A stretch of 36,758 nucleotides of DNA, taken from NCBI GenBank assembly GCA_011682385.1, contig JAACET010000039.1, forward strand, positions 1 to 36,758. Reading direction: 5' to 3'. Both the position numbers and the translations under genes were made by a program. Each line of letters begins with the position of its first letter. Position 1 is the first letter of the stretch. Below the pieces are notes generated by a model. That model did no database searches. It was not told the origin of the DNA and worked only from the letters and a program-made list of their open reading frames with translations. This document shows, piece after piece, positions 1,883-25,775 of this stretch. The DNA is from Actinomycetota bacterium (lineage in GTDB: Bacteria > Planctomycetota > Phycisphaerae > JAACET01).

Positions 1883-4096
1883 TCAATCAGCCTTTGTACT
1901 GTCGCTCGATGCCAGGAGCTCATCTCGCATACCCGTGTTCAATTTAAACTCTTTGATTGCACAGTAGAGTAACGGGACCACGAAGATGCTTACGAGTACG
2001 ACCAGCATTCCTCCAAAAGAGGGAATGGCCATGGGCACCATCACATCACTACCGCGGCCAACGGAGGTGAGAATCGGAATCAGGGCCAGGATGGTTGTGG
2101 CTGAGGTCATCAGGCAGGGCCTTACCCGCCGCTGAGCAGCCACTATCGTGGCCTCTCGAATCTGCCCAATGGAGGCCGGTTTGGTCTCCCTGAAGACCTG
2201 GTTCAGATAGGTGGATTGAATGACGCCATTGTCGGAGGCGATTCCAAAAAGGGCCAAGAAGCCCACCCAGACAGCTACACTCATATTGATGGTGTGAACC
2301 TGGAACAAATCGCGCATGCTGGTTCCGAAGACACTGAAATCCAGGAACCAAGGCTGGTCGTACAACCAGATCAATATGAATCCGCCGGCCCAGGCCACAA
2401 AGATGCCGGAAAAAACCAGCAGCGTGGTCGGCACCGACTTGAACTGGAAGTAGAGAATCATGAAGATGGCAAACATGGCCAGGGGCAAGACAATCGAGAG
2501 GGTTTTCTGAGCCCGGATCTGGTTCTCGTAGCTTCCGGCAAAGGTGTAACTGATCCCAGAGGGCAGCACCAACTCGCCACTGTTGATCTTGGTTTGCAGG
2601 TAGCGCTGGCAATCTTCGACTACGTCCACTTCGGCGTTGCCCGGCTTCATGTCGAACAGTACATATCCGGTCAAAAACGTGTCCTCGCTCTTGATGACCT
2701 GGGGTCCTCTGAGATAGCGAATCTCGGCCAGCTCGGCAATGGGGACCTGTACACCTGCCTTGCCGGGAATGAGTATTTTTACCATGGTCTCAATCTGATC
2801 CCGCAGTTCCCGTTGGTATCGCACACGGACAGGAAATCTCTCACGGCCCTCCACTGTAGTTGTAATCTTTTTGCCGCCGATGGCGACTTCGATGATATCC
2901 TGAAAGTCGCGGATTTTCACTCCATAGCGGTTGAGAGCCTTACGGTTGGGGACAATTTCCAGGTAAGGCTTGCCCACAATGCGGTCGGCGATGACCGCCG
3001 CCGGTTCTACGCTGGGGACTTCTTTTAGAAATCGCTCAATTTGCAGCCCTACTTTCTCAATGCTTTCCAGGTTTGGGCCCTTAATTTTGACTCCCATAGG
3101 TGCGCGCATGCCGCTTTGCAGCATGACAATCCGGGCGGCGATGGGCTGAAGTTTTGGGGCTGAGGTCGTTCCGGGAATTTCCGAAGCCTTGACGATTTCT
3201 TCCCAGATATCGTCTGGGCTTTTGATATAGTCTCGCCATTGGCGGAACGGTCGGCCCTTGGGGTCAGGAATGAGTTCAGCGTTTTTATCGAGGGCGAAAC
3301 GTTCCTGACTCTCGTCGTAGCGGAACTTGATTCGTCTGCCCTTCTTATCTGTCTTGTATTCCGGCTTATAGTTGATGACTGTTTCGATCATGGAAATCGG
3401 GGCCGGGTCCAAGGGACTGTCCACTCGCCCGATCTTGCCGACCACCGATTCGATCTCCGGAATGCTGTTCAGAGCCATATCCTGCTTACTCAAAACGTCT
3501 ATGGCCTCCCCGATGGAAGCATGGACCATGGTAGTGGGCATAAAGAGAAAGGAACCCTCATCGAGTGGGGGCATGAATTCCTTACCGAAGCCGGGGAACT
3601 TTTTTGTGCCTTGGACCCAGAAGGTAGTCGAACGCGTCTTTTCTTCAGGGATGCCCAACTTTTCTGCGGCAGCAGGAACCCAGCCCAGAGTGCTGGAAAA
3701 TCCCATCCAAGCAGTGAAGCCAAAGAATAGGATTAACGTGACGAACGATAGAAAGATCACCTTGTGTGCCAAGGCCCAGCGCAGGGAGGCGGGATATATC
3801 AGCATGAATAGCTGGAAAAATCCCAGCAGTCCGCCCACGAGCACAGCCACAAAAATGAAGTTAATAAAGAGCCCCAGCTCAGGCCCCAGCGGTTCCCAGT
3901 ATTGGCTCAGCAACAAGGTGATGAGTATCACCACTGCGCCATTGGCAATCCAGGGAACGAATTTCCCCACAGCTTTAGGGATTCGGTTTTGAAAGATGTT
4001 GTAAAGGGCGAACAGGCTAAGAGCTATGCCGGCCAGAGTGATCAGGATCGATCCTTTCCAGAAGCCATAGCCGGTCAGAGCCACGCCGGCAAGCAC
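1883..4096 (-). pseudogene. cusA: CusA-type heavy-metal RND pump, C-terminal part (after second frameshift)
   Basis: C-terminal part of the HME-RND proton-driven pump that drives Cu+/Ag+ out through a CusCBA tripartite complex. It begins in the frame GTG-CTT-GCC inside a transmembrane helix, so it is not a natural start. It holds the second periplasmic porter region (FLFMPTTMVHASIGEA, GMRAPMGVKIKGPNLE, VPNRKALNRYGVKI) and the last membrane bundle (TLLVFSGIFVAWAGG, SATTILALIPILTS). An insertion of charged residues (roughly YKPEYKTDKKGRR to IWEEIVKAS) makes the rebuilt protein about 1330 residues, longer than E. coli CusA (about 1047) but like long CusA forms known in other phyla. The upstream portion lies in two other frames. 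Either the gene is decayed or two single-base errors exist in the assembly. Confidence 0.85.
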
Positions 4097-4097
4097 C

Positions 4098-5895
4098 GAC
4101 GATTGCGAAAAGTATTACTCGCAATTTTTTGGCCGTTACTTTTGAGGACAGCAGAAGCATAGCCCCGGGGGGCAGAACCGTCAGGGCTATGACGATCGAG
4201 GCGATCAGGGCGAAGGTCTTGGTGAAGGCCAGCGGTCTGAAAAGCTTCCCTTCGGCACCGATCATGGTGAAAACCGGAAGAAAGCCCACGATGGTGGTGG
4301 CCACCGCGGTAAGCACGGCACTGCCTACTTCGCTGGAGGCCCGGTGCACGACCTCCAACTTGGGGGCCTCGGGCGGGGCCTGTTCCAGATGGCGAAGAAT
4401 GTTCTCGCTGACCACGATACCCATGTCCACGATGGTGCCGATGGCTATGGCGATGCCCGAAAGGGCCACGATATTGGCGTCCACTCCGAAAGTCTTCATA
4501 GCAATGCAACAGCACAGCCAGGGGAAGCATACTTCCGATCAGCAGGCTGCTGCGCAAGTGCATCATCATCACGATAACCACGATCAAGGTGATCAGGATT
4601 TCCTGACTGAGGGCATCATCAAGTGTGCCCAGGGTTTCGTAGATCAATCCCGTACGGTCGTAGAATGGTACGACCGTAACCTGACTTGTATTGACCCAGC
4701 TTGGCCAGTCGGACCTCGGCGTGGCCCGGAGATATTTTATCCAGCCGTCCTGGTTGATTTCGTCACTGGCTTCAAGATAGGCCTCAAAACCGTGTTCTTG
4801 AGCGAAACGGCTGATCTGCTCGATGGATACCTTGGAATTATCGAAAACGGCTTTGGTCCGCAAACCGGCTGAGAGTTCCGCGATTTTGTTTTTTACATTC
4901 TTGATAGTGGCCAAGGGATTCTCGCCATATCGGGCCACGACAACTCCACCGACAGCCTCGGCTCCGCCTTTATCCAATGCTCCGCGGCGCAGGGCTGGTC
5001 CCAGGGTAACCGTGGCTACCTCCTTGATGCTGATAGGAACGTTTTGGGCCACCTTAATAACGCTCTCTTCGATGTCTTCCACCCGCTTGATGAATCCGAT
5101 ACCCCGGATGAAATACTCCACGCGGTTTAGCTCGATACTCCTGGCCCCGACATCTATATTGGATCGTTTTACCGCTGCATAGATTTCCGGCAGCGTTACC
5201 TGGTAAGCCCGCATGGCATCGGGGTCGACGTCGATTTGGTACTCACGGACGAAGCCGCCAATTCCGGCGACCTCGCTGACTCCATCTGCGGAAAGCAGGC
5301 CATAGCGGACATACCAGTCCTGGATAGTGCGGAGTTCCTCAAGGTCCCAGCCCCCAATGGGCTTACCCTTAGGGTCGCGGCCTTCCAGCGTGTACCAATA
5401 TATCTGTCCCAGAGCTGTGGCGTCAGGTCCCAGGGCTGGCCGTACGCCCATCGGCAGTGTACCCGCCGGCAGGGAGTTAAGCTTTTCCAGCACCCGGGTA
5501 CGCGACCAATAGAAGTCCACCTTTTCCTTGAAAATGATGTAGATACTGGAGAAGCCAAAAAAAGAATAACTCCGAATTGTTTTCACGCCGGGAACGCCCA
5601 GCAGCGAAACAGTCAAAGGATAACCAATCTGATCTTCCACGTCCTGAGGAGATCGGCCCATCCACTCGGTAAAAACGATTTGCTGGTTTTCGCCGATGTC
5701 CGGAATAGCGTCCGTGGGGATGGGGCTTCGCTCAATGCCGGCGATGTTCCAATCGAAAGGGGCAACGTAAATTCCCCATGCCACCACAAAGAGCACAAAC
5801 AATCCCACTACGAGCTTGTTGGTCAGGCAAAACCACATTAGCCTTCCAATGAAGGACTTCTGTTCAGGCGTGGTCTCATTGTAGTTTTCACTCAT
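4098..5895 (-). pseudogene. cusA: CusA-type heavy-metal RND pump, N-terminal part, split by a frameshift at about 4506
   Basis: N-terminal half of the same pump. The ATG at 5895 (MSENYNETTPEQ) is chosen because it overlaps the cusB stop (ATGAGTGA); the longer track ORF starting at 6003 lies inside cusB. The first frame covers helix 1 and the porter domain (IPTDAIPDIGENQQ, EWMGRSPQDVEDQIGYPL) and runs in correct sequence to PLAVLL near base 4507. Homology then continues one frame over, from IAMKTFGVDANIVALSG through GTIVDMGIVVSENI, which includes the TM4 acidic residue used in proton relay, to LFAIV near 4098. There the frame moves again into the C-terminal part. Both moves are +1 in the reading direction, so they do not cancel. 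Pump function is certain at family level; whether an intact product is made is not. Confidence 0.85.
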
Positions 5896-7816
5896 GTACT
5901 TGGTCTCCTGTGGGCGTGCCTGTCTGCCGAGAAATCCCCTTGAGGGCACTACCGAACTTCGACCGCAGATAATTGATATTTTCCGCCAACGAGTCCGCTG
6001 CACGCTGAAATTCGGAAGGGGTCTTTACCGTTTGGCCTTCTATGGCATCGTTGCCCAGGCGCATGGAGGCTTCCTTCCAAAGCATACGTGGGTGCCCCTT
6101 CAGCAGATTGATATCCACAGCCTGGACCGCTTGGCCCAATCCGACAAAGCTGGCTCTAATCTCGCTGAGGTCCTCGTTTTTGACCGCCTTGTTCACATTG
6201 AGAGCCGCTGTGAGTACGGTCCTAAGCTGCTGCTGGAACTGGGCCGGCAGCTGCATGGCGGGCTTCGCGGTGGCGTCACCTTTGGCAGGCTTCTTCATCT
6301 TCATCCCGCCGTGGCCGCCGGCAGCTCCCCCGCCTTCCGGGGTCATCATGCTGGGCTTAGCTTCAATCTGCAGGGCGCTGTCAATCTTGAAGTTTCCTTT
6401 GGTGACGACCCGCTCTCCGGCTTTGAGCCCCCCGCGGACCAGATAGTAGTTGCCCGCCCGGGGCCCGAGGACAATTTCCCGGCCTTCATAAGAAGGTTTG
6501 TCCTTTTCCGGAAGTTCCACATAAACGATCGCCCTGGTGCCGGTGACCATCGCGGCGGAAACGGGAATGACCAGGGGCTTATCCACCTCAGCGGGATCTA
6601 CACTGACATAGCCGAGTGTTTCGATTGGTACCAGAGGCATCTCGCAAATATCGCAGTTGCCGGCTGAGTCTTCGATAATCGACGGGTGCATGGGGCAGGT
6701 CCATTTACCTGCCAGGTCAGGCTCCATCACTCGCCCGCCAGCGGCAATCTGGGCTCGTACTATGGCCTTGACGAACATCTGGGGTTTGAGCTTGCCTTGA
6801 GGGTTGGGAACGTTTACGCGTATTTTAACCGTTCGGGTCAGGGGGTTCAAAATTGGATCGATGAAGGAGATGGTCCCCATGAATATCTCACCCGGATACG
6901 AGACAGTGGTAAACTCGACCTTTTGGCCGGGTCGTAGCCACATCAGGTCGGATTCATAGGCGTCAAGCTTTATCCAGACCTTAGACAGGTCAGCCAAGGT
7001 ATAAATACGTGTGCCCGTATTGACGTACATACCTTCCTGAGCGTTCTTGTGAATGACCGTCCCGGCCACAGGGGCGTATATGGTCATGTGGTCAGAGACC
7101 TCTCCCCGCTCCTCGATCTGGGTGATCTGCTGTGAGGTCAAGCCCCACAAACGCAGTTTGCCCCGCGCAGCCTCTACCGTAGCATGGGCAGTTTCTCTAA
7201 TTATCTTTATGTCGCTATCTTCGAGATCCTTGAGCGCCTGGTGGGCTTGGAGCAGTTCCTCCTGGGCGCTGAGCAGTTCCGGACTATACAGGGAAACCAT
7301 ATGATCGCCCTTGTTCACCTCAACGCCTGTATAGTCCACGAAGAGTTTGTCCAAGCGCCCGGGGATCCAGGCGGTTATGTAGGCCAGGCGGGTTTCGTCA
7401 TAATCCACCTTGCCCACCATGCGGATCTCTGCGGTTACAAATTTACGTTCAACCACCGCTGTTTCGATATCCATCAGGACCTTGGCCTCTTGGCTGATCG
7501 TGAACTCGCGCAGACCCGACATTTTGTCCCCGCCGGTCGTGCGAGCTGGTATGAGTTTCATGCGGCACTTTGGGCACAGACCCGGCCTGGAAAGGCGTAC
7601 TTCCGGGTGCATCGAGCAAGTCCACATGGTGGTTGGTTCTTCGGCTTGGTCTTCTGAGGATTTGGCGGCTGAGACTGGAGCGCCGCCCGAATCGGGTGCC
7701 GGACCTGAAAAAACCAGATACCCGATTCCAATACCGACCAACACTGCAATCAACAATCCCGCGTGCCTGCCTATCCAACGGACCGTAGCCCAAATCCGAA
7801 CTAATATTTTATTCAT
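5888..7816 (-). CDS. cusB: CusB-type periplasmic adaptor with two heavy-metal-binding domains
   Basis: Membrane fusion protein that links the CusA pump to an outer-membrane channel and hands over Cu+/Ag+. It has an N-terminal membrane anchor (residues 17-37). A first heavy-metal-binding module, WTCSMHPEVRLSRPGLCPKC, lies near residue 62, followed by barrel-sandwich and hairpin regions (APVAGTVIHKNAQEGMYVN). A second module, WTCPMHPSIIEDSAGNCDIC, lies near 370. A His/Met/Gly-rich linker leads to a helical C-terminal domain (about 515-640) resembling the DUF3347 domain fused to some adaptors. Start ATG has a good SD (AAAGGAA). It is first in a cusBA operon and overlaps cusA by 8 bases. No outer-membrane channel gene (cusC type) is in view. 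Confidence 0.88.
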   Translation of the reverse strand: MNKILVRIWATVRWIGRHAGLLIAVLVGIGIGYLVFSGPAPDSGGAPVSAAKSSEDQAEEPTTMWTCSMHPEVRLSRPGLCPKCRMKLIPARTTGGDKMSGLREFTISQEAKVLMDIETAVVERKFVTAEIRMVGKVDYDETRLAYITAWIPGRLDKLFVDYTGVEVNKGDHMVSLYSPELLSAQEELLQAHQALKDLEDSDIKIIRETAHATVEAARGKLRLWGLTSQQITQIEERGEVSDHMTIYAPVAGTVIHKNAQEGMYVNTGTRIYTLADLSKVWIKLDAYESDLMWLRPGQKVEFTTVSYPGEIFMGTISFIDPILNPLTRTVKIRVNVPNPQGKLKPQMFVKAIVRAQIAAGGRVMEPDLAGKWTCPMHPSIIEDSAGNCDICEMPLVPIETLGYVSVDPAEVDKPLVIPVSAAMVTGTRAIVYVELPEKDKPSYEGREIVLGPRAGNYYLVRGGLKAGERVVTKGNFKIDSALQIEAKPSMMTPEGGGAAGGHGGMKMKKPAKGDATAKPAMQLPAQFQQQLRTVLTAALNVNKAVKNEDLSEIRASFVGLGQAVQAVDINLLKGHPRMLWKEASMRLGNDAIEGQTVKTPSEFQRAADSLAENINYLRSKFGSALKGISRQTGTPTGDQVHE

Positions 7817-19333: not shown

Positions 19334-19378
19334 AAATTGCTCATTGATCGGAGATTGAAGTGGGAATATCATTTCGGC

Positions 19379-19828
19379 ATGGCCAAGATGCTCGGCTATA
19401 TGATTACTTGGACAACATACGGTACCTGGTTGCCAGGTGATGACCGCGGCTATGTTACCCACGGTAAGATTCTGGGTAGAAACGAAGGTTTGCGACAAAC
19501 CAATATGAGAAGATTGAAAAGTAGGATTGTAAACTTATCCCAGCAGGAACAGGAGGTCGTTCGAAGAGCTATACTCAGTCGGGCGGAAAGTCTAAGGCAA
19601 AAGATATATGCAATTGTGGTACGTTCAAATCACGTGCATATAGTAGCTCAACGCATCTCAAAATCAATAGAAATGGTGGTCAGCTATTATAAGAATTCAG
19701 CTCGGCTGGCGCTGCGAGCGAACGGATTTACTGACCGGCTCTGGACAAGGGGTTTTGACAAACGGTTTTGTTATGAGCACTCCCAGTTGAAAGGCAGAAT
19801 CGAGTATCTGCAAGGACATCCAGAGTAA
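19379..19828 (+). CDS. REP-associated tyrosine transposase (IS200/Y1-like, RAYT)
   Basis: Single-strand DNA transposase of the HUH/Y1 class, expected to cut near REP hairpins. I choose ATG 19379 (MAKMLGYMITWTTYGTW), giving 149 residues, since family members begin close to the WTTYGTW motif; ATG 19388 is also possible and no strong SD is seen for either. The HUH motif is SNHVHIVA, the likely nucleophile Tyr lies in the helix VSYYKNSARLAL, and the RAYT signature RLWTRGFDKRF and YLQGHPE end follow. It appears full length and intact. Its hairpin flanks differ from the REP doublet near fur, so it may mobilise only its own pair. Confidence 0.88.
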   Translation: MAKMLGYMITWTTYGTWLPGDDRGYVTHGKILGRNEGLRQTNMRRLKSRIVNLSQQEQEVVRRAILSRAESLRQKIYAIVVRSNHVHIVAQRISKSIEMVVSYYKNSARLALRANGFTDRLWTRGFDKRFCYEHSQLKGRIEYLQGHPE

Positions 19829-19955: not shown

Positions 19956-19963
19956 GTACAGAT

Positions 19964-20070
19964 GCCGGCAATCACCTACTCTCGCCCGTAAGGACTACCA
20001 TCGGCCGTCAGGGCTTAACTTCGCAGTTCGGAATGGGATGCGGTGTTTCCCCTAACGTATGGTCACCGGC
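19964..20070 (-). rRNA. rrf: 5S ribosomal RNA
   Basis: On the minus strand the RNA starts GCCGGUGACCAUA and ends GGUGAUUGCCGGC, closing helix I. The conserved core CCGAACUGCGAAGUUAAG is present. The length of about 107 nt is slightly short but normal; ends are set by helix I. Confidence 0.92.
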
Positions 20071-20300
20071 AAAATCGTGGACCCACATTTAGCGGGCCGT
20101 TTTATTCAAATAAACTGCTGAATAGGAGCAAATCAAGAAATTGACCAACAGGGCAAAATAGATGTGGTCAAGCACTTGTCCGTTAGTACTGGTTAGCACA
20201 CGTATCTCTACGCTTACACATCCAGCCTATCAACCTGGTAGTCTACCAGGGGACTCTCGCTCAACCCCGAAGGGGAGCCGGCAGACCTAATCTCGAGGGA

Positions 20301-20333
<33 letters not shown>

Positions 20334-20476
20334 TTTCCCGGCGTAGCTACCCAGCAGTGCCCTTGGCAGGACAACTGGTACACCAGAGGCCAGTCCCACC
20401 CAGTCCTCTCGTACTAGGGTGAAATCCTCTCAAGTCTGCAACGCCCACGACAGATAGGGACCGACCTGGCTCACGC

Positions 20477-20507
<31 letters not shown>

Positions 20508-20536
20508 TTGGCGAACAGCCAAACCCTTGGGACCGC

Positions 20537-20580
<44 letters not shown>

Positions 20581-21064
20581 GCCTCGCCGCTATGGACGCT
20601 CGGAGGCGATCAGCCTATCCCCGGAGTACCTTTTATCTGTTGATCAATGGCCCTTCCACACGGGACCACTGGGTCACTAGGTCCTGGTTTCCCATCTGCT
20701 CGATACATATATCTCGCAGTTAAGCACCCTTATACCCTTGCGCTCTACGTGCGATTGCCAACCGCACTGAGGGTGCCTTTGAACTCCTCCGTTACCCTTT
20801 AGGAGGAGACCGCCCCAGTCAAACTGCCCACCTAACACTGTCCCACACCCGGATTCACGGGCTGTGGTTAGGACGGCTGAGGCAGAAGGGTGGTATTTCA
20901 AGGATGGCTCCACCCCGGCCGAAACCGGGACTTCATCGCCTCCCACCTATCCTACGCATCTGACACAAACATCCAATATCAGGCTACAGTAAAGGTTCAC
21001 GGGGTCTTTCCGTCTTGTCGCGGGTAAGTGGTATCTTCACCACTACTTCAATTTCACCGAGTCT

Positions 21065-21104
<40 letters not shown>

Positions 21105-21129
21105 CGTCGGAACTTACCCGACAAGGAAC

Positions 21130-21167
<38 letters not shown>

Positions 21168-22857
21168 AACCGGGGCTTCGGTCGAAAGCTTCTCAGGATT
21201 ACTCCCAATGACCTCCTTCCTTAACCTTCCGGCACCGAGCAGGCGTCAGTCTCTATACGTCGTCTGTAGGACTTAGCAGAGACCTGTGTTTTTGATAAAC
21301 AGTCGCCAGAGCCACTTCACTGCGCCCTCCATCCGACCAAAATGTGAACATAAAGATCAGGTGGGAGGGACCCCTTATCGCGAACTTACGGGGTCAATTT
21401 GCCTAGTTCCTTAACCAGAGTTCTCTCGAGCGCCTGAGGATATGCTCCTCGCCTACCTGTGTCAGTTTTAGTACGGATGTGCACCCAAGTCCTTACGAGG
21501 TTTTTCTCGGTCGAGAGGCCAGCCACTTCGGCAACGTAAATCGGCCTCGAGCTGACGGATCACCTGATGATTGGCGGATTTACCTACCAATCAGCGACCC
21601 GTCCCCAACGCACACGTCCAATCGTGCGCTGGCCTTTCCCTCGACGTCACCCCTTAAGTACAAACCCGGGGCGCACAGTGCAGGAATATTAACCTGCTGT
21701 CCATCGTCTACGCCTTTCAGCCTCAACTTAGGGTCCGACTAACCCTGGGCGGATTTACCTTCCCCAGGAAACCTTAGGCTTACGGCGGGCAGGATTCTCA
21801 CCTGCCTTATCGTTACTCATACCGGCATATTCACTTGCACACGCTCCACCGCTCCTTACGGTACGACTTCAACGCTGTGTGCAACGCTCGGCTACCACTT
21901 CCACAATTAAGTGGAAATCCGCGGCTTCGGTGACGTGCTTAGTCCCGTTCATTATAGGCGCCAAACTGCTCGACCAGTAAGCTATTACGCACTTTTTAAA
22001 TGGTGGCTGCTTCTAAGCCAACATCCTGGCTGTCTTGGCAATTCAACTTCCTTACGCACTTAGCACATCTTGGGGACCTTAGCCGACGGTCTGGGTTGTT
22101 TCCCTTTTGACCACGGAGGTTATTCCTCGTAGTCTGACTCCCGGGGTAGTCGTTATGGTATTCGGAGTTTGATTGAAGGAGGTAGTCGGGTAGACCCCTC
22201 ATTTCATTCAGTAGCTCTACCCCCATAACGTAGTGTCCCGAGGCTAGCCCAAGAGCTATTTCGCCGAGAACCAGATATCTCCGAGTTTGATTAGACTTTT
22301 ACTCCTCCCCACAGCTCATGCCAAAACTTTTCAACGTTTACGGCTTCGGTCCTCCAAGGATGATTAGATCCTTTTCAACCTGGCCATGGGTAGATCACTC
22401 GGTTTCGGGTCTACCACCTGCGACTAAAACGCCCTATTCAGACTCGCTTTCGCTACGGCTTCCCTGCGTAACAGGTTAGCCTAGCCGCAAACGGTAACTC
22501 GCCGGTCCATTATGCAAAAGGTACGCCGTCACCCGTTATCAGCCCCGAAGGACTGATCATAGGGCTCCGACTGCTTGTAAGTATATGGTTTCAGGTTCGT
22601 TAACTCCCCTAATAGGGGTTCTTTTCATCATTCGCTCGCGCTACTTGTACACTATCGGTCGTCAAGGAATACTTAGCCTTGGAGGGTGGGCCCCCCAGCT
22701 TCACACGGAGTTCCACGAGATCCGTGCTACTCTGGAATAGCAGGCATAACGGAGGGCTCCCAGTACCGCCTACAGGACTTTCACCCTCTACGGTGGGCCT
22801 TTCCAGGACCCTTCGGCTACCGGTGCCTTTGTAACTCCTACCTACAATCCACAACCC

Positions 22858-23160
22858 CCAGCACCTATTTTAATCAAGCAACATGCTATTGCATATGCGA
22901 TCCAACAATTGCCTACGTGCACGACCGTCATGTTTCAGACGATATTCACGTCTTGTTGCATCCGCCTTCACTAGGTAAGCCTCATAGTAAACCAGTTCCC
23001 ATCTGCCTTTACGAGCCATTTTCGCGCCTGTGCCGCTTTTGTGCCGCTCAACGCGCTGTCGCAGATCCGAACTATAGCCTATATAATTCTCACCAGTTTC
23101 TTTTTCCAGCAAAACATACACATAGTACATTGCATGTCCCTTAACTAAAATAGGTGCTGG
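22858..23160 (-). other. 23S rRNA intervening sequence closed by a perfect 15-bp stem
   Basis: CCAGCACCTATTTTA (22858-22872) and TAAAATAGGTGCTGG (23146-23160) are perfect reverse complements and enclose 273 bases. In other bacteria this spot, between AGCCCAAACC and GGGGUUGU, is a short variable hairpin. The insertion therefore sits at a hairpin tip, as RNase III-processed intervening sequences do. There is no room for a group I or II intron core. Confidence 0.88.
22870..23130 (-). CDS. GIY-YIG nuclease domain protein encoded inside the 23S rRNA insertion
   Basis: An 86-residue single-domain GIY-YIG endonuclease of the UPF0213/YhbQ-like type. The signature Tyr triads are YYVYVLLEKETGENYIGYS (the first usually written GIY, the second YIG). 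The catalytic Arg follows in DLRQRVERH, WELVYYEAYL is a family-typical strand, and the metal-binding Glu is in ATRREYRLK. All key residues appear present, so it may be active. The ATG is preceded by AAGGGA six bases upstream. The start lies 15 nt inside the insertion and the UAA stop is part of the closing stem, so the gene fills the loop almost completely. It reads in the same sense as the rRNA. Its target is unknown: homing into rRNA genes, rRNA cleavage or a merely parked gene are all possible. Confidence 0.88.
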   Translation of the reverse strand: MYYVYVLLEKETGENYIGYSSDLRQRVERHKSGTGAKMARKGRWELVYYEAYLVKADATRREYRLKHDGRARRQLLDRICNSMLLD

Positions 23161-23610
23161 GTTTGGGCTATCTCCGATTTCGCTCGCCGCTACTGACGGA
23201 GTCTCGGTTGATTTCCTTTCCTACAGGTACTTAGATGTCTCAGTTCCCTGCGTAGTCTCCACACGACCTATGAATTCAGCCGTGGGTGACGCCATCCGCC
23301 CGAAGACGGTGACGCCGGGTTGCCCCATTCGGAAATCCCCGGATCAATGTTCGTTTGACAACTCCCCGGGGCTTATCGCAGCCTACCACGTCCTTCATCG
23401 ATTCTTGACGCCTAGACATCCACCATATACTCTTAGGAGCTTGACCACAACTATTTCACCCTGTCAGCAGGGATTCAAAAGTCGGTCAAATTCCTCTCAA
23501 AACGCTCCAAAGTTGCGAGGACACCATAAGATTGAACATACAGTGCGACCGCAACCTTTTGGTGAGGGCTAATCGGAATGATTAGCCACACCACTTATCC
23601 AGCAGTTTAA

Positions 23611-23745: not shown

Positions 23746-23818
23746 TGGAGCCGAGCGGACTCGAACCGCCGACATCTAGCTTGCAAAGCTAGCGCTCTCC
23801 CAGCTGAGCTACGGCCCC
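23746..23818 (-). tRNA. tRNA-Ala(UGC)
   Basis: The acceptor GGGGCCG pairs with CGGCUCC (one G-U), discriminator A. The anticodon stem-loop CUAGCUUUGCAAGCUAG gives anticodon UGC, and the T-loop GGUUCGAGUCC is standard. CCA is not encoded. It lies second in the 16S-23S spacer. Confidence 0.95.
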
Positions 23819-23891
23819 GGTGTCCTTCCCAAGGCCTTTTTGCCCAAAGTCGGCAATCCAAGGCCCTAATACCGAGTATCCTTAGCTATAA

Positions 23892-23965
23892 TGGGCCCGG
23901 ATAGACTCGAACTATCGACCTCGTCCTTATCAGGGACGCGCTCTAACCAGCTGAGCTACGAGCCC
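23892..23965 (-). tRNA. tRNA-Ile(GAU)
   Basis: The acceptor GGGCUCG pairs with CGGGCCC, discriminator A. The anticodon loop CUGAUAA gives GAU, and the T-arm GUUCGAGUC is standard. CCA is not encoded. Order 16S-Ile-Ala-23S is the classic one. Confidence 0.95.

Positions 23966-24134: not shown

Positions 24135-25775
<1,641 letters not shown>

Follow-up and report, generated by a model that had tools for sequence, protein, structure and literature searches.

Intervening sequences occur sporadically in the 23S rRNA genes of Coxiella, Leptospira, Salmonella and other bacteria, where they may carry one ORF and are devoid of an intron core. In Coxiella, the intervening sequence has a 28-bp stem, and RNase III removes the loop (PMC4990558). 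A study of CPR bacteria describes rRNA insertions with GIY-YIG ORFs that are scattered in 16S and 23S rRNA genes, places many of them at the top or base of stem-loops, and judges them to be outside a homing context (PMC11270868). Homing endonucleases in CPR rRNA spacers have also been reported, as have diverged RNase P RNAs with extended helices (PMC8172020), and a GIY-YIG protein is among the genes inferred to have been transferred out of Patescibacteria (PMC12455944).

Here we describe a 305-nt insert within a 23S rRNA gene of a planctomycete, encoded on a stretch of 36,758 nucleotides that is referred to as the window. Like the intervening sequences above, the insert occupies a 23S hairpin tip, has terminal repeats that can form a long stem, and contains one ORF and no intron core. 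It differs from them in that the ORF encodes a GIY-YIG nuclease and not the four-helix S23 protein, and in that its ends are common to copies in RNase P RNA genes, beside tRNA genes and in intergenic DNA. The CPR insertions likewise have a GIY-YIG ORF inside 16S or 23S rRNA at stem-loops, and thus provide the precedent that a first-pass annotation of the window had implied to be lacking (PMC11270868). That study deals with CPR rRNA only and, in its accessible part, leaves terminal repeats undescribed, whereas the window insert is from Planctomycetota, has defined inverted repeats, and is related to ORF-less copies and to elements at RNase P RNA and tRNA genes.

The catalytic domain and its conserved residues are shared with I-TevI of group I introns and with the free-standing Seg enzymes; unlike these, the window protein (86 aa in total) is associated with neither an intron nor a separate DNA-binding domain, and is bounded by inverted repeats. 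The ORF-less copies resemble MITEs, REPs and Rickettsia palindromic elements, which are short palindromic units spread in genomes, but here a full-length version encoding a GIY-YIG protein exists and structural RNA genes are targeted. By sequence and fold, the closest solved structures are those of UPF0213/YhbQ-like proteins and SLX1, neither of which, to our knowledge, is known as a gene of inverted-repeat elements. A literature search that took in few subscription papers or preprints found no account of repeat-bounded GIY-YIG elements as one family, nor of members in RNase P RNA or adjacent to tRNA genes.

A GIY-YIG gene within a planctomycete 23S rRNA gene

The rRNA operon has the normal gene order on the minus strand (16S, tRNA-Ile, tRNA-Ala, 23S, 5S), as identified with Rfam and ARAGORN. 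Its features, and those of the insert, are as follows.

19963–20070, minus strand: 5S rRNA gene of the same operon (Rfam RF00001)
20164–23446, minus strand: host 23S rRNA gene, otherwise full length (Rfam RF02541, model positions 1–2925, 2680.6 bits)
22857–23161, minus strand: whole element, 305 nt (repeat search, alignment to E. coli and relatives, empty site in genome G247, 304-nt homologue in locus L085)
22857–22878, minus strand: 3' terminal inverted repeat in the rRNA sense, CTTGATTAAAATAGGTGCTGGG, overlapping the ORF stop codon
22870–23130, minus strand: GIY-YIG nuclease ORF, 86 aa, ATG start, catalytic residues intact (ORF list, Pfam, AlphaFold)
23137–23142, minus strand: Shine-Dalgarno-like AAGGGA, 6 nt 5' of the ATG (sequence)
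23139–23161, minus strand: 5' terminal inverted repeat in the rRNA sense, CCCAGCACCTATTTTAGTTAAGG, a terminus common to L085 (23S), L095 (RNase P RNA) and G246 (16S leader)
23746–23965, minus strand: spacer tRNA-Ala (23746–23818) and tRNA-Ile (23892–23965) (ARAGORN)
24138–25775, minus strand: 16S rRNA gene, in the same operon as the interrupted 23S (Rfam RF00177)

The 23S gene is 3283 nt long, compared with 2925 positions in the model, and alignment with E. coli rrlB and relatives places the surplus mainly in one block after E. coli position ~288. It is the only 23S (RF02541) in the assembly, a 2.35-Mb draft in 185 contigs that is 89% complete. Two other features of the window are recorded here. 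An ORF resembling Y1 (IS200/REP-type) transposases occurs immediately past the 5S gene (19337–19828), and a heavy-metal efflux gene (CzcA/CusA-like, 1883–6003) appears to be broken into several overlapping minus-strand frames, which suggests frameshifts or sequence errors.

The element is bounded by CCCAGCACCTATTTTA and TAAAATAGGTGCTGGG, with termini CC...GG. The first-pass annotation had reported a perfect 15-bp inverted repeat around a 273-nt loop; the loop length holds, but the perfect repeat is 16 bp (22857–22872 and 23146–23161) and extends imperfectly to 33 nt at 85%. Further pairs are contributed outside the repeat by the host-hairpin flanks AACC and GGGGTT. The complementarity score of the arms is 60.5, compared with a maximum of 30.5 among 100 shuffles. 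Just 44 nt of the insert are non-coding, and therefore an intron core cannot fit, as had been proposed from the first inspection; there is also no match to an Rfam intron family within the window, and a group I or group II intron is rejected on these two grounds. The group I introns found in L087 and L107 are located elsewhere in those genes.

The earlier identification of a complete GIY-YIG gene in the rRNA sense is borne out. The ORF matches the Pfam GIY-YIG family (PF01541, E = 3.6e-15), and its protein has Y5, Y16, G18, R26, H30 and E62, none of which varies among 30 relatives. The AlphaFold model has a mean pLDDT of 88.9 and matches, from best to worst, the UPF0213 structure 1zg2, SLX1, UvrC N-domains and I-TevI; 1zg2 is also the closest solved structure by sequence (E = 6e-15), in agreement with the fold search. 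Pfam, the residues and the model together place the protein in the GIY-YIG superfamily by its fold and its catalytic Tyr, Tyr, Arg and Glu. The ORF has no S23 (23S_rRNA_IVP) match in Pfam and, as the sole ORF, leaves the element with no known transposase (DDE, Y1, serine or tyrosine recombinase). Compared with the homologue at the same site in L085, mismatches at the three codon positions number 33, 23 and 57, as expected of a protein-coding gene under selection. Several homologues have stronger Shine-Dalgarno versions (AGGAGG, AGGAGA) at the equivalent place.

The insertion point corresponds to about E. coli 23S position 288, where the apex of a short expansion hairpin is replaced. In G247, a genome of the same genus, the flanks are 92% and 94% identical and there is only a 4-bp UUCG hairpin at the insert site (AGCCCAAACC-AGTC-TTCG-GACT-GGGGTTG, compared with AGCCCAAACC-CAGCACCTATTTTA...TAAAATAGGTGCTG-GGGGTTG in the window). 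The insert is absent from all 28 other 23S loci of the class at this site, G247 included, and 24 of the 28 have a short hairpin there that is mostly UUCG-capped. The proposed location at a hairpin tip is thereby upheld, and the empty site and the survey of the class indicate that the insertion is recent on a genus scale. Judged from the aligned sequences, the insertion replaces or opens the apex of the expansion hairpin.

A search of the protein against other 23S loci, which had been suggested at the outset, recovered relatives in the 23S genes of L085, G127 and Lagierella massiliensis. L085, an independent planctomycete assembly, has its 304-nt homologue at the same 23S site. G127, a closed genome of the same class, has a gene 60% identical to that of the window in both 23S copies, at helix H68. 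In the isolate Lagierella massiliensis SIT14, elements occur in both rrn copies, and the 23S inserts are located in H68 and in the H25 region. These occurrences are independent, which makes the assembly chimera contemplated in the first-pass annotation very unlikely. In the second rrn copy of Lagierella (L088/L210, L212), the H68 element has a ~40-nt YIG-encoding patch replaced and is otherwise nearly identical, a difference due to decay, local conversion or assembly error. GIY-YIG matches were found in 29 of 397 genomes of the class, and sites were classified in G127 and G317, the latter apparently being the L085 record.

Shared ends and targets of the element family

A scan of species-representative genomes yielded 288 relatives, and the best 80 of these were kept, which are not a random sample. 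Near-identical ends (CCCxGCACCTATTTT...) flank GIY-YIG ORFs elsewhere in rRNA and within RNase P RNA. The terminus of the L085 23S element (CCCCGCACCTATTTTTG) has counterparts in the P12 helix of RNase P RNA in L095 of candidate division TA06 (CCCCGCACCTATTTTGC) and in the planctomycete L098 (CCCCGCACACAGTTTGC), in the 16S–23S spacer of L122 (TCCCGCACCTTTTAGCC) and in the 23S gene of L124, a Levybacterium (CCCCTCACCTTTTTG). Terminal inverted repeats common to copies at unrelated sites, as in transposons, are therefore a property of these elements. The initial view of the closing stem as simply a 23S hairpin has to be given up: related genes are enclosed by these same repeats in RNase P RNA, in 16S, in spacers and in intergenic DNA, and a purely host-derived stem is rejected for this reason.

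Flanking inverted repeats that outscored every shuffle, with z > 4, were detected at 47 of the best 80 of 288 relatives and at 14 of 389 control ORFs from the same contigs; the other 33 of the 80 have no detectable repeat pair. Across 38 anchored elements, arms pair at 96.2% within an element and at 54% when swapped between elements, the outer CC...GG is invariant, and every other column includes changes on both sides. Anchored elements are 257–314 nt long, most of them 284–314 nt. Direct repeats of at least 5 bp that resemble target duplications are present at the termini of 8 of the 38, compared with 0.39 expected and a maximum of 3 in 2000 draws. They include ATGTAA (L100), ATGAT (L134) and ATGAA (L140), as well as those of L091 and of four related tRNA copies. 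Where present in family copies, such duplications measure 5–7 bp; none is visible at the window copy.

Copies without an ORF are also found. G246, which belongs to the genus of the window, has one of 107 nt (CCCCGCACCTATTTTGAG...CTCAAAATAGGTGCGGGG) ~100 nt 5' of its 16S gene, and in L113 there is one before tRNA-Ala. Five intergenic palindromes of ~46–70 nt in G127 (contig C1, at 1463063, 3217863, 3567151, 3573624 and 3574033) have the core CCGTCACTTGTTT, which is nearly that of the ends of the two 23S elements in the same genome (CCGTCACTTGATT). Further RNase P RNA helices in L094 (4254–4596), L095, L098 and L109 are ORF-less hairpins with the same ends (CCCAGCACATAGTTTATGTGCTGGG, CCCGCACCTATGCATAGGTGCGGG), as if these RNAs had been invaded several times. 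In L091 (~2893–3156), palindromes are nested on both sides (ATAGGTGGGGGAAAAATCCCCCACC and GGTGGGGGAAAATCCCCGCACCTAT), a pattern that insertion of one element into the ends of another could produce.

About half of the best 80 of 288 relatives lie within or next to genes for rRNA, RNase P RNA or tRNA. Twelve of the 80 are in 23S or 16S genes and one is in a 16S–23S spacer, and several of the rRNA loci carrying relatives belong to CPR. RNase P RNA hosts account for six of the 80 (L094, L095, L098, L101, L109 and L135, of which L101, L109 and L135 were assigned by conserved motifs and not by an Rfam gathering-score match), with insertion points in P12, in the hairpin preceding GAGGAAAGTCC, or close to the 3' end. 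No Rfam RNA family was found around L027, whose ORF shares its ends with the RNase P insert L026. Four 23S genes have two elements each: L085 at 288 and H68, L088 at H68 and in a gap at E. coli ~533–560, and L103 and L104 with the second element in the 288 gap. Related elements thus occupy several non-homologous sites, with more than one in a single 23S, which is not the behaviour of a homing element with one target site. The first-pass proposal of a mobile insertion maintained by its own endonuclease survives in part: relatives in other phyla imply mobility, but 23S-specific homing to one site is contradicted by the same ends elsewhere. In the H68 copies of L025, L085 (second copy), L086 and L092, the ORF reads through the right repeat and stops inside host 23S sequence, with a C-terminus of ..GEAPN or ..GEADD.

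Approximately 20 of the best 80 of 288 relatives are at tRNA genes. By a strict count, a same-strand tRNA follows directly 3' of 18 of these 80, compared with 9 of 399 control ORFs; at none of the 80 does an opposite-strand tRNA lie in this position. At many tRNA sites a partial duplicate of the 5' end of the same tRNA lies upstream of the ORF, and therefore an intact tRNA remains. The tRNA-Glu loci (L096, L130, L136, L148, L149 and L153) have an architecture that differs from the inverted-repeat members of the family: the first 22–39 nt of the tRNA are copied upstream of the ORF, followed by two small G+C-rich hairpins and a remnant of tRNA sequence from beyond the break. The family may be mixed, given that 33 of the 80 are without a detectable repeat pair and that the tRNA-Glu loci have a pair of small hairpins in its place. 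In L161 (Elusimicrobia, ORF 4001–4270), the element apparently interrupts the D-loop of a tRNA-Asp-like sequence, and a complete tRNA-Asp is located ~236 nt downstream.

All insertions in RNA genes are in the sense direction. At the other loci, orientation agrees with that of the upstream gene by 25 to 14, and no consistent target was seen outside RNA genes. The target bias reflects either true target choice or survival of tolerated insertions. Alignment-based scanning of 2.9 million viral contigs revealed no relative, and a viral origin is rejected on that basis.

A tree of 82 proteins, which are short and leave many forks unresolved, places the window with G127, L085 and L086 (97% SH-aLRT), all of them planctomycete 23S inserts, at two different hairpins. 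Other groups unite hosts from different phyla: WOR-3 and Planctomycetota in the RNase P group (97%), Lagierella and Saccharicenans in the H68 group (95%), and CPR and Elusimicrobia in the tRNA-Glu group (98%). The tree requires 17 changes of target class; 300 shuffles required 36.4 on average and never fewer than 31. Target class therefore tracks the tree across phyla, indicating that target preference is inherited with the nuclease while hosts change. Proteins of the window clade are not sorted by 23S site; the window protein (288) is closest to that of G127 (H68), and the 288 copy of L085 shares 59% identity with that of G127 and 56% with that of the window. On the evidence of these protein sequences, the family has spread horizontally.

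Possible modes of movement

The insert is probably a small mobile DNA element of ~300 bp, in which terminal inverted repeats of ~16–25 bp surround a GIY-YIG endonuclease gene as the only gene, and which is tolerated at hairpin tips in the same way as 23S intervening sequences. Host RNA polymerase would copy the element as part of the rRNA, and the sense orientation, the Shine-Dalgarno-like motifs and the codon constraint lead us to infer that the ORF is translated by means of a ribosome-binding site of its own. The nuclease, with its fold near UPF0213 and SLX1, may cut DNA at the element ends, at the target or at both, and thereby lead to insertion elsewhere. A protein related to SLX1, a branched-DNA endonuclease, would suit the hairpin or cruciform DNA that inverted repeats can form. 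Insertion would sometimes leave a target duplication of 5–7 bp, as seen at other copies and not at that of the window. The copies that persist have repeats that lengthen an existing RNA hairpin (23S H68, the 288 hairpin, RNase P P3 and P12) or leave an intact tRNA downstream, a pattern that could result from selective survival. From what is known of intervening sequences, RNase III probably cuts the long stem in the transcript, resulting in a working 23S in two pieces. The short ORF-less copies with the same ends would be non-autonomous derivatives. Against a clean insertion, the apex of the host hairpin in the window is replaced and not cleanly interrupted.

We consider it unlikely that the insert is a classical 23S intervening sequence with a GIY-YIG homing endonuclease, in which the stem is a 23S structure or RNase III site and spread is to the same 23S site only, by cleavage and homologous repair. 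The hairpin-tip position and long closing stem are indeed as in the Coxiella intervening sequence (PMC4990558), GIY-YIG ORFs are present in CPR rRNA insertions (PMC11270868), the 288 and H68 sites are each used in several phyla, and four 23S genes have inserts at two sites. This is not a complete account, however, as the same ends and related proteins occur at RNase P RNA, the 16S leader, spacers and intergenic DNA, and the proteins closest to that of the window are not grouped by their 23S site.

Movement could instead occur at the RNA level, with an excised hairpin RNA re-inserting into structured RNAs, a host reverse transcriptase copying the product to DNA, recombination following, and the nuclease acting on RNA or aiding repair. 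The uniform sense orientation in RNA genes and the location at RNA hairpin tips are consistent with this, but a need for read-through expression would explain the orientation equally well, no reverse transcriptase is linked, and the duplication-like repeats at intergenic L100, L134 and L140 suggest insertion of DNA; we regard this route as very unlikely.

It is highly improbable that a host or housekeeping gene of the UPF0213/YhbQ-like GIY-YIG type was passively trapped in palindromes that are moved by a different enzyme such as a REP-type Y1 transposase. In many phyla the ends are found together with the ORF at a near-constant 257–314 nt, and target class follows the GIY-YIG tree, even though the nearest solved structures are UPF0213 proteins, ORF-less palindromes exist, and the window has the Y1-transposase-like ORF beyond its 5S gene. 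An assembly artefact or pseudogene has a negligible probability despite the draft state of the source genome (185 contigs, 89% complete), given the occupied site in the independent L085, the elements in both rrn copies of G127 and Lagierella massiliensis, and an ORF under codon constraint.

Returning to the mobile DNA element, a broader proposal is quite possible, although we do not favour it as it stands: a new class of DNA transposons in prokaryotes, with a small single-domain SLX1-like GIY-YIG nuclease as the sole enzyme, which recognizes its own hairpin-forming ends. Such elements would prefer hairpins and structural RNA genes (23S, 16S, RNase P RNA, tRNA), spread among phyla including CPR and Planctomycetota, and leave palindromes lacking an ORF, which have altered the shape of helices in rRNA and RNase P RNA. 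We know of no demonstrated case of transposition in which a GIY-YIG protein is the only enzyme. We file the element with intervening sequences and homing-nuclease elements, and see a real chance that it represents a new transposon class.

Implications for structural RNA genes

The window insert appears to belong to a family of mobile elements, so far little noticed, that inhabit the structural RNA genes of many unrelated bacteria. Every 23S copy found in the genome of the window, in G127 and in Lagierella carries an insert, and thus the ribosomes of these organisms must use interrupted or cut rRNA. If the proposed explanation is correct, it would link the GIY-YIG insertions in CPR rRNA (PMC11270868), the CPR spacer endonucleases and odd, extended RNase P RNAs (PMC8172020), the inferred export of GIY-YIG genes from Patescibacteria (PMC12455944) and unexplained 23S intervening sequences. 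It would also explain rRNA and RNase P genes that are hard to detect in metagenomes, offer a testable origin for fragmented rRNAs, and supply a candidate for a minimal transposon based on a non-classical nuclease.
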